This document shows positions 20,191 to 31,084 of a stretch of 38,736 bases of DNA, piece after piece. Below the pieces are notes generated by a model, which saw only the letters and a program-made list of their open reading frames with translations, ran no database searches and had not been told where the DNA came from. How positions within the stretch are numbered: position 1 is the first letter of the stretch; each line of letters opens with the position of its first letter. The position numbers and the translations under genes were made by a program. Source of the stretch: Myxococcales bacterium (GTDB lineage Bacteria; Myxococcota_A; Polyangia; Polyangiales; Polyangiaceae); contig JANXVA010000802.1 of the NCBI GenBank assembly GCA_025351875.1, positions 1 through 38,736 on the forward strand, given 5' to 3'.

Positions 20191-20685
20191 TCAGTCGGTC
20201 AGCTGATCGATGTAGAGACCGAGGCGCTCGAGCTCGTTCGCGTCGAGAGGCCTGTTGCCCTTGTCGTAGGGCATCGGGCTGCCGCAGTCCTGCGTGCCCT
20301 TCACCTTGTGCCAGAGGAGGCTTGCAGCGCGGTCGCCGGGCTTGATGCGGACGGCGATGTCGCTCCCGCGGCCGCAGACCGTCGCGCCGCTCGGGCCGCC
20401 GGTCGCGACGCCGACGGTGTTCTTCGTGAACGGCGCGGAGAGGTCGACGTTCGCGCTGCGCGCGCCGTGACACTTCACGCAGCGTGAATCGAACAGCGCC
20501 TGGACCTCGGCCTGCGAGTAGGCCGTGAGGTCGGCTGCGGGCTCGGCCGTCGCCGTCTCGTCGGGTGAGGTCGAGGTGGCGGGCGTCCCGCTCGCCGTGG
20601 GCGATGTCGTCGCCGACGAGCAAGCAGGGATCAGCGAGGCGAGAGCGCCGCAGAGGACGAGCGTGGCGAGGCGATTGAGCATCAT
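20191..20685 (-). CDS. Lipid-anchored mono-haem c-type cytochrome domain protein
   Basis: A 164-residue predicted lipoprotein. The signal peptide (MMLNRLATLVLCGALASLIPAC) ends in a lipobox, and a Ser/Thr/Pro linker follows. A cytochrome c domain then has one haem-binding CVKCH motif (EVQALFDSRCVKCHG) and a likely distal ligand in CGSPMP near the C-terminus. The pattern SLLWHKVKGTQDCGSPMP is common in Planctomycete and myxobacterial haem domains attached to outer proteins. It would sit on the periplasmic side and pass electrons; partners are not visible nearby. The open frame begins at 20808, but the signal peptide starts at ATG 20685 or 20682. No strong ribosome-binding site is seen. Confidence 0.82.
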   Translation of the reverse strand: MMLNRLATLVLCGALASLIPACSSATTSPTASGTPATSTSPDETATAEPAADLTAYSQAEVQALFDSRCVKCHGARSANVDLSAPFTKNTVGVATGGPSGATVCGRGSDIAVRIKPGDRAASLLWHKVKGTQDCGSPMPYDKGNRPLDANELERLGLYIDQLTD

Positions 20686-21585: not shown

Positions 21586-22341
21586 TCACGACGTCGGGAC
21601 GCTCGCGCAATCGCGGAGCTTGCAGCCCGATTCGTACATCGAGATGACGCTTCCCGCGCAGGCGACCGCCCCCGCGCCGCATGCGGCCGTGAGGAGTCCG
21701 AAGGAGAGGCCGTCGGCGATGAGACAGACCCCCGTCGCGACGATGCAACCGGCGGAGGAGACGAGCTGACCGACACACCCGTTGCCGCTCTTGTCGAGCA
21801 AACACTGCGGCGGCCCGACAAGCGTGGTCGTGGGGTGGCCGATGAACCCGCCCGAGAGAGGCCTCGTCGAGAGCGAGGACTTCACGAGCGTCGAGGCGGG
21901 CGCCGGCCCCGCGTGAGCGAGGTCCGCGCCGAGCCGCTGGAGCGTCCGGCGCGCGACGGGCGAAGCGAACGCGTCGAGGTTCGCGGTGCCGCCCTCGGCC
22001 TTGGCCTCGTAGCGAAGAGTCGCCGCTTCAGGTGCCCGCACGTCGTAGGTGAAGACCGCCGCGCTCGGTCCCTGAGACTCGACCCCCATCACGACGTCGG
22101 CGCGTATGCCGCCGGCCTCGTCGACGCCGATCGCATGCGTGGCGTGCGTGGTGCCGTCGTCCTCGGGAGCGACCCACCACGTGACGACACCGAGCTGCTG
22201 CGTGGTCTCCTCGGAGGCTGCCGTCGACACACCTGGCGGATTCGCCGCGTGAGGTGTCGGGCTCGTCTCGCTGGAGCATCCGGCGACGATCGAGGTGGTG
22301 ACGAGACCGAACGCGAGAACCGTCTTGGCCGACATGCGCAT
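21586..22341 (-). CDS. Lipoprotein with C-terminal eight-cysteine, halocin-C8-like domain
   Basis: A 251-residue predicted lipoprotein. The signal peptide (MRMSAKTVLAFGLVTTSIVAGC) ends in a lipobox at Cys22. The middle (about 45-165) is beta-rich with no motif known to me. The last 72 residues hold eight cysteines in a hydrophobic, Gly/Ala-rich run (AGCIVATGVCLIADGLSFGL, CGAGAVACAGSV, MYESGCKLRDC), resembling the mature halocin C8 peptide in cysteine density, hydrophobic core and the C-terminal Y-x-SGC ending. AGGAG six bases before the ATG at 22341 decides this start over upstream in-frame starts. A 12-base palindrome lies 131 bases upstream. The resemblance is by eye and could reflect a general disulfide-rich membrane-active domain. 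Lipid anchoring of such a domain would be unusual. Confidence 0.75.
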   Translation of the reverse strand: MRMSAKTVLAFGLVTTSIVAGCSSETSPTPHAANPPGVSTAASEETTQQLGVVTWWVAPEDDGTTHATHAIGVDEAGGIRADVVMGVESQGPSAAVFTYDVRAPEAATLRYEAKAEGGTANLDAFASPVARRTLQRLGADLAHAGPAPASTLVKSSLSTRPLSGGFIGHPTTTLVGPPQCLLDKSGNGCVGQLVSSAGCIVATGVCLIADGLSFGLLTAACGAGAVACAGSVISMYESGCKLRDCASVPTS

Positions 22342-22471
22342 GAGGAGCTCCTGGGTGAGAGACATCGAGGCGACCTGCCATCCCCGTGCCACGCCAATTC
22401 TCCAGAGAAAGACGGCAAATTCAGGGACGCATGCGGAACCACCGGCTCCGCACTGAGAACGAACGCTTCGC

Positions 22472-25564: not shown

Positions 25565-26644
25565 TCAGAACCGGACGAGCGCGCGCGCCGTACCGCCGCC
25601 GAGCACGAGCGTTCCGGTACCGCCGAAGGCCGCCGCGAGATCGCCGGCGATCTCGAGCTGGAGCTGCTCGCCGAGTCCCCACGAGACGAACGCCGCGCCA
25701 TGACCGAGAAAGCGAGCCGTCTTCTCGGCGCCGATCGCCACGTGCGCGCCGAGGAGCACCTCGGGACCCACGAAGAGGCGGTACTGTGGGAGCACTCCGA
25801 TCGCGTAGCGAGCGCCCGCGGCGATCTCGAGCGCGCGCGGGCCGATCACCTGGCTCGTGAAGATGCCTCGCAGCTCGACGCCGGGCACCTGCTCGATCGC
25901 GTAGGCGAACACGCCACCGAGGGCGAGCGCTTCCGACGGACCACGCGCCTCCGACGGTCGAGCCAGAGCGGTGGACGCGCCGACCGAGACGCCGAGCGCG
26001 GCAGGTCGGTTCTCCGCGTACGCGTGCTTCACGACCGGCTCGGCGGGAGGCGGTGGAGGCGGTGGCGGTGGCGGTGGCGCCTTCGGCTTGGCCTTGGGCT
26101 TTCGCTTGTGTGGTTCCGCACCGTCCCACGGGAGCACGGCGCTCTTGATCCCTTCGGGGCGCAAGAGAAGGCCCAGCATCTCGCCGAGCTGTACGCTTGC
26201 CTCGTCGGGATCGATCTCACGCGCGAGCGACTCGACGCGACCCGTGTCGACCTGACACACCTCGAGCTCGACGCGATACGTCGTGTAGCCATCCTCCTCC
26301 GTTCCGTCGGGGAGACGTGCAGGAGGTGCATCATGACGGTCGATGCGACCTGTGACGGTCCATTGCGAGCCGGAGGCCTTCCCTGCGGCGCGGTACTCCT
26401 GGCTGGTGTCGGGCGAGCCATCCCTCACCGCCTGCTCGGCGCTGAGCATCTCGCCCGGGCTCGGCGGCACGTGGCCCTTCGCGATCACCGCATCCCGCGC
26501 CCAGGCGCGCGCCTGATCGAGCTCGGGCTTCGTGCTCGTCTTCGCGGCGGAGAACGGCAGCACGGCGACGCGGTCCGCGAGCGCGGGCGAGGCCGTGCAG
26601 AGCAGCAGACCGAAAACGAGGAGAGTGACGAGGAAGCGAAGCAT
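25565..26644 (-). CDS. Secreted proline-rich protein with outer-membrane-like C-terminus
   Basis: A 359-residue protein. The signal peptide ([23 protein letters not shown]) has a type I cleavage site, so it is exported. An N-terminal domain (about 24-165, beginning RVAVLPFSA) is followed by a Lys/Pro linker with eleven prolines in a row, then a Gly-rich beta region (about 210-359) with alternating hydrophobic strands ([30 protein letters not shown]). It ends in VRF, and a terminal Phe is typical of outer-membrane barrels. The small barrel and linker suggest a surface or periplasm-spanning role; no family is recognised. tsaE follows seven bases downstream, so a transcriptional unit with tsaE and the PHP gene is likely. 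Confidence 0.75.
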
Positions 26645-27003
26645 GGCAGGGGTGCGTGAAGGAAGCGGCCAAACCTTAGCTCAAATTCGAACCGGGACGA
26701 GCTCACCGCGCCTCGCCACCACGCAGCGCACTCCTGGCAGGCCGCGTGCCATGCGCTCGCCGAAGACAGCGCGCGAAGCGGCTGCAGAACGACTCGCACT
26801 CGACGAGCGCGCTCGTACCGACGAGCGCGCTCGTACCGACGAGCGCCGCGGACGCGCCGCGGACCCGCCGAGGAGCGCCCTCCCCGCTCATGCGGCCTCC
26901 TTTCAGCGCGCCGGAGTATCGCGCAGTACCTCGTGCGGGCCCCGTTTTTTCGCGCTGATGGGCGTACGTACGTATTCTGAAGATCTTCCGGAGGTCGCTC
27001 GCA
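26645..27003. other. 359-base gap between the divergent barrel-like and pilT-type genes
   Basis: No gene is supported here. The gap holds the tandem repeats described separately, a 10-base palindrome GAAGATCTTC (26979-26988), a TACGTACGTA stretch just before it and the GGAGG ribosome-binding site (about 26990-26994) of the PilT-type gene. The AT-richer 26965-26988 stretch is the likeliest promoter region for that gene. A minus-strand frame through the repeats has no family-like content. Confidence 0.55.
26803..26864. repeat. Two short tandem repeats in a gene-free gap
   Basis: ACGAGCGCGCTCGTACCG occurs twice perfectly in tandem (26803-26820, 26821-26838) with a partial third copy (from 26839). 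Each copy contains the palindrome CGAGCGCGCTCG. Directly after it, GCGCCGCGGAC occurs twice in tandem (26843-26853, 26854-26864). These lie upstream of both divergent genes. They may be regulator-binding sites or slippage-prone simple repeats. Confidence 0.6.
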
Positions 27004-30764: not shown

Positions 30765-31084
30765 TCACTGCTCGAAGCAGTAGAGGCGAAGACCGGTCTG
30801 GCAGATCATGGTGCCAGCGTTCGTCCAGGCGCTGATGCTCGTGGTGCTGCTACCGACAGTGCCCACGTTCGCCGGATCGCCAATCGTCCAGCTCGAGCAG
30901 GTCGACTGCGTCCTCAGGCCGAAGGCGGTCGTTCCCGTCCAGACGAACGTCGGCGACAGGCTCGAGTTGTTCTTGGACGACGCGGCAGGGAGGGAAGCAA
31001 GCACCGTGCAAAGGCCCCACGAGCCGCGAGCGCGCCGCCGGCTCCGCCTCCGCAGAGCGCGAGCGCCGCCGCCGCGCGCGTCAC
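30765..31084 (-). pseudogene. Decayed lipoprotein gene, C-terminal DUF1554-like fragment remains
   Basis: Residues read from 31004 down end in a recognisable C-terminal block: VWTGTTAFG, CSSWTIGDP, GTVGSSTTSISAWTNAG and CQTGLRLYCFEQ. This is the end of a domain found in Leptospira and myxobacterial surface lipoproteins (DUF1554-like, by my recollection). Upstream in a different frame a GTG at 31084 starts VTRAAAALALCGGGAGG, which looks like a short lipoprotein signal peptide. The body that should separate them, probably more than 100 residues, is missing, and the frames do not match. A short intact gene starting at GTG 31004 is possible but would lack a signal peptide. The remnant lies convergent with the two-repeat gene. 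Confidence 0.6.

Follow-up and report, generated by a model that had tools for sequence, protein, structure and literature searches.

A Polyangiales lipoprotein with a hydrophobic eight-cysteine tail belongs to a domain family with interchangeable tails and frequent sigma54-type promoter signatures

The window analysed here is a 38,736-nucleotide stretch from an 8.9-Mb assembly of 805 contigs. It encodes a lipoprotein, P0001, whose parts and upstream site are listed in Table 1. The preliminary description of this DNA had placed a lipid-anchored protein with a cysteine-rich C-terminal domain at 21586–22341; these coordinates are right, and the strand, which it had left unsaid, is minus. The P0001 frame was preferred over the antisense open reading frames by a codon-usage gene caller. 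The lipobox was recovered by motif recognition (TSIVAGC, with Cys22), and eight cysteines were indeed found within the last 72 residues (180–251), the C-terminal end being YESGCKLRDC. The middle part of the protein, from the lipobox to the tail, is cysteine-free. Searches of the whole protein against NCBIfam (E ≤ 1) and Pfam named no family, a sequence search of the PDB gave no match below E 2, and a search of viral contigs and plasmids returned no relatives. Among public genome contigs, a first scan yielded no relatives and a second scan yielded two Labilithrix loci. A scan for a sigma70 promoter and a terminator at P0001 found neither.

Table 1 Features of the P0001 gene and of the region upstream of it
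Feature	Position	Strand	Details
Lipoprotein gene P0001	21586..22341, stop included	minus	251 aa from ATG 22341
Other in-frame ATG of P0001	22365	minus	gives 259 aa
Signal peptide and lipobox TSIVAG-C; Cys22 is the expected lipid-bearing residue	22276..22341	minus	lipobox by motif
N-terminal putative carrier domain, residues 36–145	21907..22236	minus	profile A7, leave-one-out 46.9 bits
Hydrophobic eight-cysteine tail C180–C245, at the variable 'payload' position	21607..21804	minus	cysteine layout, hydropathy
Twin CX6C segment C199-x6-C206-x14-C221-x6-C228, possible disulfide-stapled helical hairpin	21658..21747	minus	cysteine spacing
sigma54 (−24/−12) promoter-like site TGGCACGGGGATGGCA	22376..22391	minus	11/12 consensus positions

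Several other features of the window were recorded. A second lipoprotein gene, P0002 (20917–21552, plus strand), is convergent with P0001 and encodes 211 aa with four cysteines besides the lipobox and no Pfam or NCBIfam match; it was considered as a member of the family described below and rejected, as it scored only 4.1 bits with a signal-free profile. A further lipoprotein, encoded at 20191–20685 (minus strand), carries a CVKCH haem-binding motif and weakly matches cytochrome c (PF00034, 0.001). Just upstream of the gene at 25565–26644 (minus strand) lies a perfect 18-bp tandem repeat of 2.6 copies (26801–26846).

Relatives of P0001 were recognized through its N-terminal part. The whole-protein search gave faint matches, two of which had a middle domain in common with it, and with a three-row profile, 18 of the 183 genomes searched within the order had matches. 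Profile A7, restricted to the middle domain to exclude signal-peptide matches, detected at least 35 matches in at least 13 of 108 genomes of the same taxonomic family, including at least six in the window's own genome, and matches in at least 5 of 377 genomes across the phylum. These counts are lower bounds because the best 41 candidates per genome (108 genomes) and the best 11 (377 genomes) were scored. Proteins inside the A7 profile match it by construction; when left out of the profile, P0001 still scored 46.9 bits, compared to a maximum of 12.8 in 5,000 shuffles. The domain spans approximately 110 aa and typically sits behind a lipobox. Judged by these profile scores, P0001 belongs to a domain family left unnamed by Pfam and NCBIfam, its members being lipoproteins of soil bacteria with large genomes. 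In the AlphaFold2 model of P0001 computed from a three-row alignment (mean pLDDT 45), the N-domain was predicted better than the tail (about 25), with a pLDDT of about 55–85 over much of residues 36–145, comprising a short helix (ASEETTQQLGV), about five strands and a helix. Using this model, Foldseek returned nothing from the PDB at E ≤ 0.001, and the best VIA-align hit (Z 5.6) may be just a common beta arrangement. Literature searches on Labilithrix lipoproteins and on Polyangia lipoproteins, bacteriolytic proteins, M23 and predation returned no title on this family, which leaves its absence from print unproven.

The C-terminal parts of the family were then compared. Twenty-nine member proteins were assembled by hand from profile-search loci and extra regions, with L129 added later, and hydropathy and cysteines were tabulated for 37 proteins; L058, L059 and L073 were left out of the table as duplicates of L132, L131 and L138, respectively, and L051, L061–L066, L072, L083–L090, L142 and L207 as weak or unread. 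Enzyme domains were recognizable in several tails, namely Trypsin (PF00089, 2.1e-11) in L067, Peptidase_M23 (PF01551) in L074 (2.2e-24) and L053 (6e-17), and lambda lysozyme (1am7/3d3d, 3.5e-13) in L078, while L052 and L069 have a lambda-type lysozyme tail by eye. The tail of L050 matched 9flh, annotated as 'LysM domain-containing protein' (3.3e-12), which we take to be an ARB_07466/VldE-like wall domain. NlpC/P60-like motifs in L076, L105 and L156 fell below threshold (0.029; 0.12). Hydrophobic Gly/Ala-rich tails with cysteines occur in L070, L054, L055, L057, L060 and L129, and the low-complexity tails of several members are rich in Gly, Ser and Asp and lack an enzyme. Two or more cysteines follow the N-domain in 36 of the 37 tabulated proteins; most enzyme-bearing members have a C-x17-C element directly after it (C-x4-6-C-x17-C). 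The C-terminal ~200 aa of L075 and L071 are strand-rich in Thr, Ser and Val and by eye have the look of a beta-rich pore-former; they had no database match.

Sequence comparison thus establishes both that P0001 belongs to this family and that the family's tails are interchangeable. As the same N-domain fronts enzymes as well as cysteine tails, the simpler reading is that it is a shared carrier rather than a guard for one bacteriocin. The preliminary description had suggested the N-terminal part as a possible guard of the peptide, a role that does not fit a domain found in front of trypsin, M23 and lysozyme tails; moreover, hhalign of 11 N-domains with the N-terminal parts of three halocin precursors gave no substantial alignment (E 0.64). 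The catalytic domains in several members are those of the bacteriolytic enzymes of predatory myxobacteria (M23, lysozyme, NlpC/P60 and serine proteases), but compared to the secreted enzymes they are here built onto one lipoprotein domain that also carries non-enzymatic hydrophobic cysteine tails.

A sigma54-type site upstream of P0001 prompted a scan of the whole family. The sigma54 consensus is GG-N10-GC with TGGCACG-N4-TTGCW, and the P0001 site (TGGCACG-GGGA-TGGCA) ends 34 nt before ATG 22341 and 10 nt before ATG 22365. Two sites with at most one mismatch are present in the window, compared to 0.27 expected; the other (30996–31011, minus strand) is near a called gene for 79 aa (30765–31004, minus strand). 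When at least 9 of 12 positions had to match no more than 60 nt from the called start, a site was found for 14 of 35 members, compared to 6 of 321 genes at 40 random loci drawn from seven genomes other than the window's own, and 9 of the 228 remaining genes of the member loci. The enrichment held when P0001 was removed and each orthologue group was counted once (10 of 29, Fisher 1.8e-8). It was confined to a GG-to-GC gap of 10, since gaps of 6–9 and 11–14 were found in 0–3 of the 29. The P0001 site is among the three best matches of the family. As a sequence pattern, therefore, a sigma54-type promoter signature is established upstream of many members, P0001 among them. Most family sites end 10–14 nt before the called start, so that the leader would be very short if they are promoters; that of P0001 would be longer if translation starts at ATG 22341.

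Genes next to the members were compared with those at the same 40 random loci, leaving out 3 of the 35 member loci that had no called member gene. A sigma54 activator was present within two genes at 8 of 32 member loci and 2 of 40 random loci; seven of these eight were FHA-type by Pfam, compared to none at the random loci (7 of 32 versus 0 of 40), an enrichment noticed post hoc and including three orthologous loci among the seven. Trypsin-like neighbors were not significantly more frequent at member loci (4 of 32) than at random loci (1 of 40; p = 0.12, also post hoc). At the P0001 locus neither a sigma54 activator nor a trypsin-like gene occurs within two genes. Among neighbor families, only those of the sigma54 activator, of a kinase and of trypsin recurred at unrelated loci, and no immunity-like gene recurred next to family members. 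Only 4 of the 35 members are followed within 150 bp by a short gene on the same strand, and apart from one orthologue pair these genes belong to no common family; the downstream neighbor of P0001 is convergent.

The tail of P0001 was characterized separately. Its cysteines lie at residues 180, 189, 199, 206, 221, 228, 240 and 245, with gaps of 8, 9, 6, 14, 6, 11 and 4. The two CX6C pairs point to a possible helical hairpin stapled by disulfides. A four-disulfide fold had been envisaged earlier; AlphaFold2 run on the tail alone as a single sequence (pLDDT 48) gave two helices, 196–211 and 215–237, and no confident fold, both helices being at a pLDDT of about 45, and the hairpin is accordingly put forward as a proposal. 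On its own, the tail had no significant similarity to any profile tried. Against a profile of the L070, L054 and L055 tails it scored −2.4 bits, with 4,240 of 5,000 shuffles as high, and when it was paired with each of 27 member tails, the lowest counts (5 of 500 and 9 of 500 shuffles) lost significance over the 27 comparisons. The lead-in to the tail (P-T-T-T-L-V-G-P-P-Q-C-L) looks like that of L050. The best candidate relative is the tail of L129, from another genus, in which LTAACGAGAVACAGS can be set against LTGACGGGAVACAAS; the spacing is partly similar and the alignment weak (14 of 3,000 shuffles, or 81 of 3,000 with cysteines fixed, for a protein chosen after many tails had been read). 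A tail-only search of 183 genomes of the order gave matches in 41 genomes at E ≤ 0.1. Of 30 of these loci, those that could be re-read as open frames looked chance-like except for the window's own, many of them sitting in apparently non-coding frames.

We tentatively interpret the family as sigma54-induced, surface-displayed lipoprotein effectors for antibacterial action or predation, each consisting of a carrier and a payload, a reading that we hold with slightly less than even confidence. Members would reach the outer membrane or the cell surface, where the N-domain and the lipid anchor would present the tail to other cells, and their use in predation or competition would be triggered through the FHA-type sigma54 activators. 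Such use against other cells is suggested by the tails that can be named, which act outside the cytoplasm, together with the lack of a kept partner gene. No dedicated immunity gene would be expected, since the recognizable payloads act outside the cytoplasm. The least certain step concerns P0001 itself, whose 66-residue tail, with no recognizable enzyme, might, on the model of hydrophobic bacteriocins, insert into the target membrane. Export, surface position, killing and disulfides are predicted properties of the family, and trypsin and M23 domains can act just as well in self-remodelling or development. The antimicrobial or predation-linked setting proposed in the preliminary description is plausible given the peptidoglycan hydrolases and the protease found among the relatives of P0001, even though the halocin identity that came with it is dropped. 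Rather unlikely, in our estimate, is a more far-reaching version, in which Polyangiales would hold a sigma54-induced arsenal in which a single carrier displays exchangeable modules for killing (a protease, muralytic enzymes and stapled hydrophobic hairpins acting like bacteriocins), convergent with the SitA and halocin C8 layouts; it would lack immunity genes because all its targets lie outside the cytoplasm.

The main rival is that these are structural or developmental lipoproteins. The cysteine-rich tail would then be a stalk or membrane-contact segment of a housekeeping surface protein (spore coat, matrix, adhesion or envelope) that kills nothing, which is a real possibility although we consider it doubtful. 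It agrees with the C-x4-6-C-x17-C segment that enzyme-bearing members have at the same place, as P0001 could simply end there, with the members whose low-complexity tails lack an enzyme, and with the role of sigma54 activators in the starvation development of Myxococcus described in one study (PMC9765219). However, the P0001 tail is not significantly like the other cysteine segments, scoring 1.6 bits against a cysteine-module profile of 17 members, a value reached by 159 of 2,000 shuffles. It is also more hydrophobic than the tails of enzyme-bearing members (maximum KD19 of 1.99 versus 0.58–1.5). Another rival supposes that the precursor is cut by a co-expressed trypsin-like lipoprotein, which would release the tail as in haloarchaea, whose precursors are reported to be activated by extracellular proteases (PMC12893001). 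Trypsin-like lipoprotein genes do adjoin L105/L108, L154, L161 and the weaker member L164, and L067 has a trypsin domain of its own, but the neighbor counts given above do not separate member from random loci and no such gene adjoins P0001, so that we regard this processing as improbable.

The preliminary description had likened the tail to halocin C8. The 283-aa ProC8 is reported to be processed to HalI and a 76-aa peptide (PMC11509114). Halocin C8 is likewise the C-terminal, hydrophobic, cysteine-rich part of a longer exported precursor, and the 66-aa tail of P0001 is comparable to the 76-aa peptide in length and in hydropathy (GRAVY of 0.97 for residues 180–245 versus 0.89; maximum 19-residue mean of 1.99 in both). 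Both have symmetric cysteine pairs able to staple a helical hairpin (x6, x14, x6 in P0001; x7, x13, x7 in halocin C8), a run like that of P0001 arising in 678 of 200,000 random eight-cysteine layouts, for a feature picked post hoc. The likeness of the ending stands as far as YESGC in P0001 resembles EYSGC in halocin C8 and the segment is C-terminal and hydrophobic; it does not extend to profile scores, in which shuffles do as well. TIGR04449, the NCBIfam model of the halocin C8-like domain, has a curated cut-off of 24 bits and gave 61.5 bits (E 1.1e-16) for halocin C8, whereas it did not match the P0001 tail at E ≤ 10, in a search whose HMMER filters drop most weak matches. Neither whole P0001 nor the window's own genome matched it at E ≤ 1, and nothing in 377 genomes of the phylum rose above the cut-off. 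Without filters, a profile of four halocin tails scored the P0001 tail at −0.3 bits, with 185 of 2,000 shuffles as high, or 161 of 2,000 with cysteines held in place. The halocin family has ten conserved cysteines (gaps 2, 7, 3, 7, 12–13, 7, 8, 8 and 5–7), whereas P0001 has eight with other outer spacing. P0001 has a lipobox, compared to the Tat export reported for ProC8, a bacterial host, and an N-terminal part that is unrelated to that of halocin precursors and is joined to enzymes in other members. The tail had neither a profile match nor relatives with conserved cysteine spacing, the two outcomes that the preliminary description had named as speaking against its halocin claim. It is therefore extremely improbable that the tail is a genuine but diverged halocin C8 family member with an N-terminal immunity domain; judged by these comparisons, the likeness is one of layout and not of demonstrable descent, and while the P0001 tail may work like a halocin, filing it as one is not supported.

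A final alternative is a SitA-like polymorphic toxin passed between kin by outer membrane exchange. SitA proteins of Myxococcus are also lipoproteins with a conserved N-terminal part, exchangeable C-terminal parts and several paralogues per genome, they come from the same phylum, and traAB is present in all three suborders of Myxococcales (PMC6372800). SitA is reported to have escort domains of approximately 375 aa in six families, C-terminal nucleases and an always adjacent sitI (PMC8546572). The P0001 family differs in its N-domain of approximately 110 aa, in its recognizable tails, which are a protease and peptidoglycan hydrolases acting outside the cytoplasm, and in the absence of an adjacent immunity gene; the few short same-strand genes downstream and the convergent neighbor of P0001 also speak against such operons, and the family is set further apart by the sigma54-type sites that precede many of its genes. 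P0001 had no match among the NCBIfam models, and the two are separated here by described features. We consider a SitA-like toxin very improbable.

Contact killing of prey by myxobacteria is only partly understood. A sigma54-linked family of carrier-plus-payload lipoproteins, which is probably new, offers a defined gene set with one putative carrier domain, swappable tails and a common sigma54-type signature, so that regulator, signal and targets become directly testable. Its short cysteine-rich tails are candidate antimicrobial peptides, and the record for this locus is corrected as regards the halocin C8 likeness.

Two arrangements at member loci may be added. At L105 (3764–7489) and L108, in genomes G160 and G161, three adjoining lipoprotein genes encode a CHAP-domain protein, a member whose tail is NlpC-like and a trypsin-like protein. 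At L160 (3826–7510, genome G006), three tandem family members with differing low-complexity tails stand beside an FHA-sigma54 activator.
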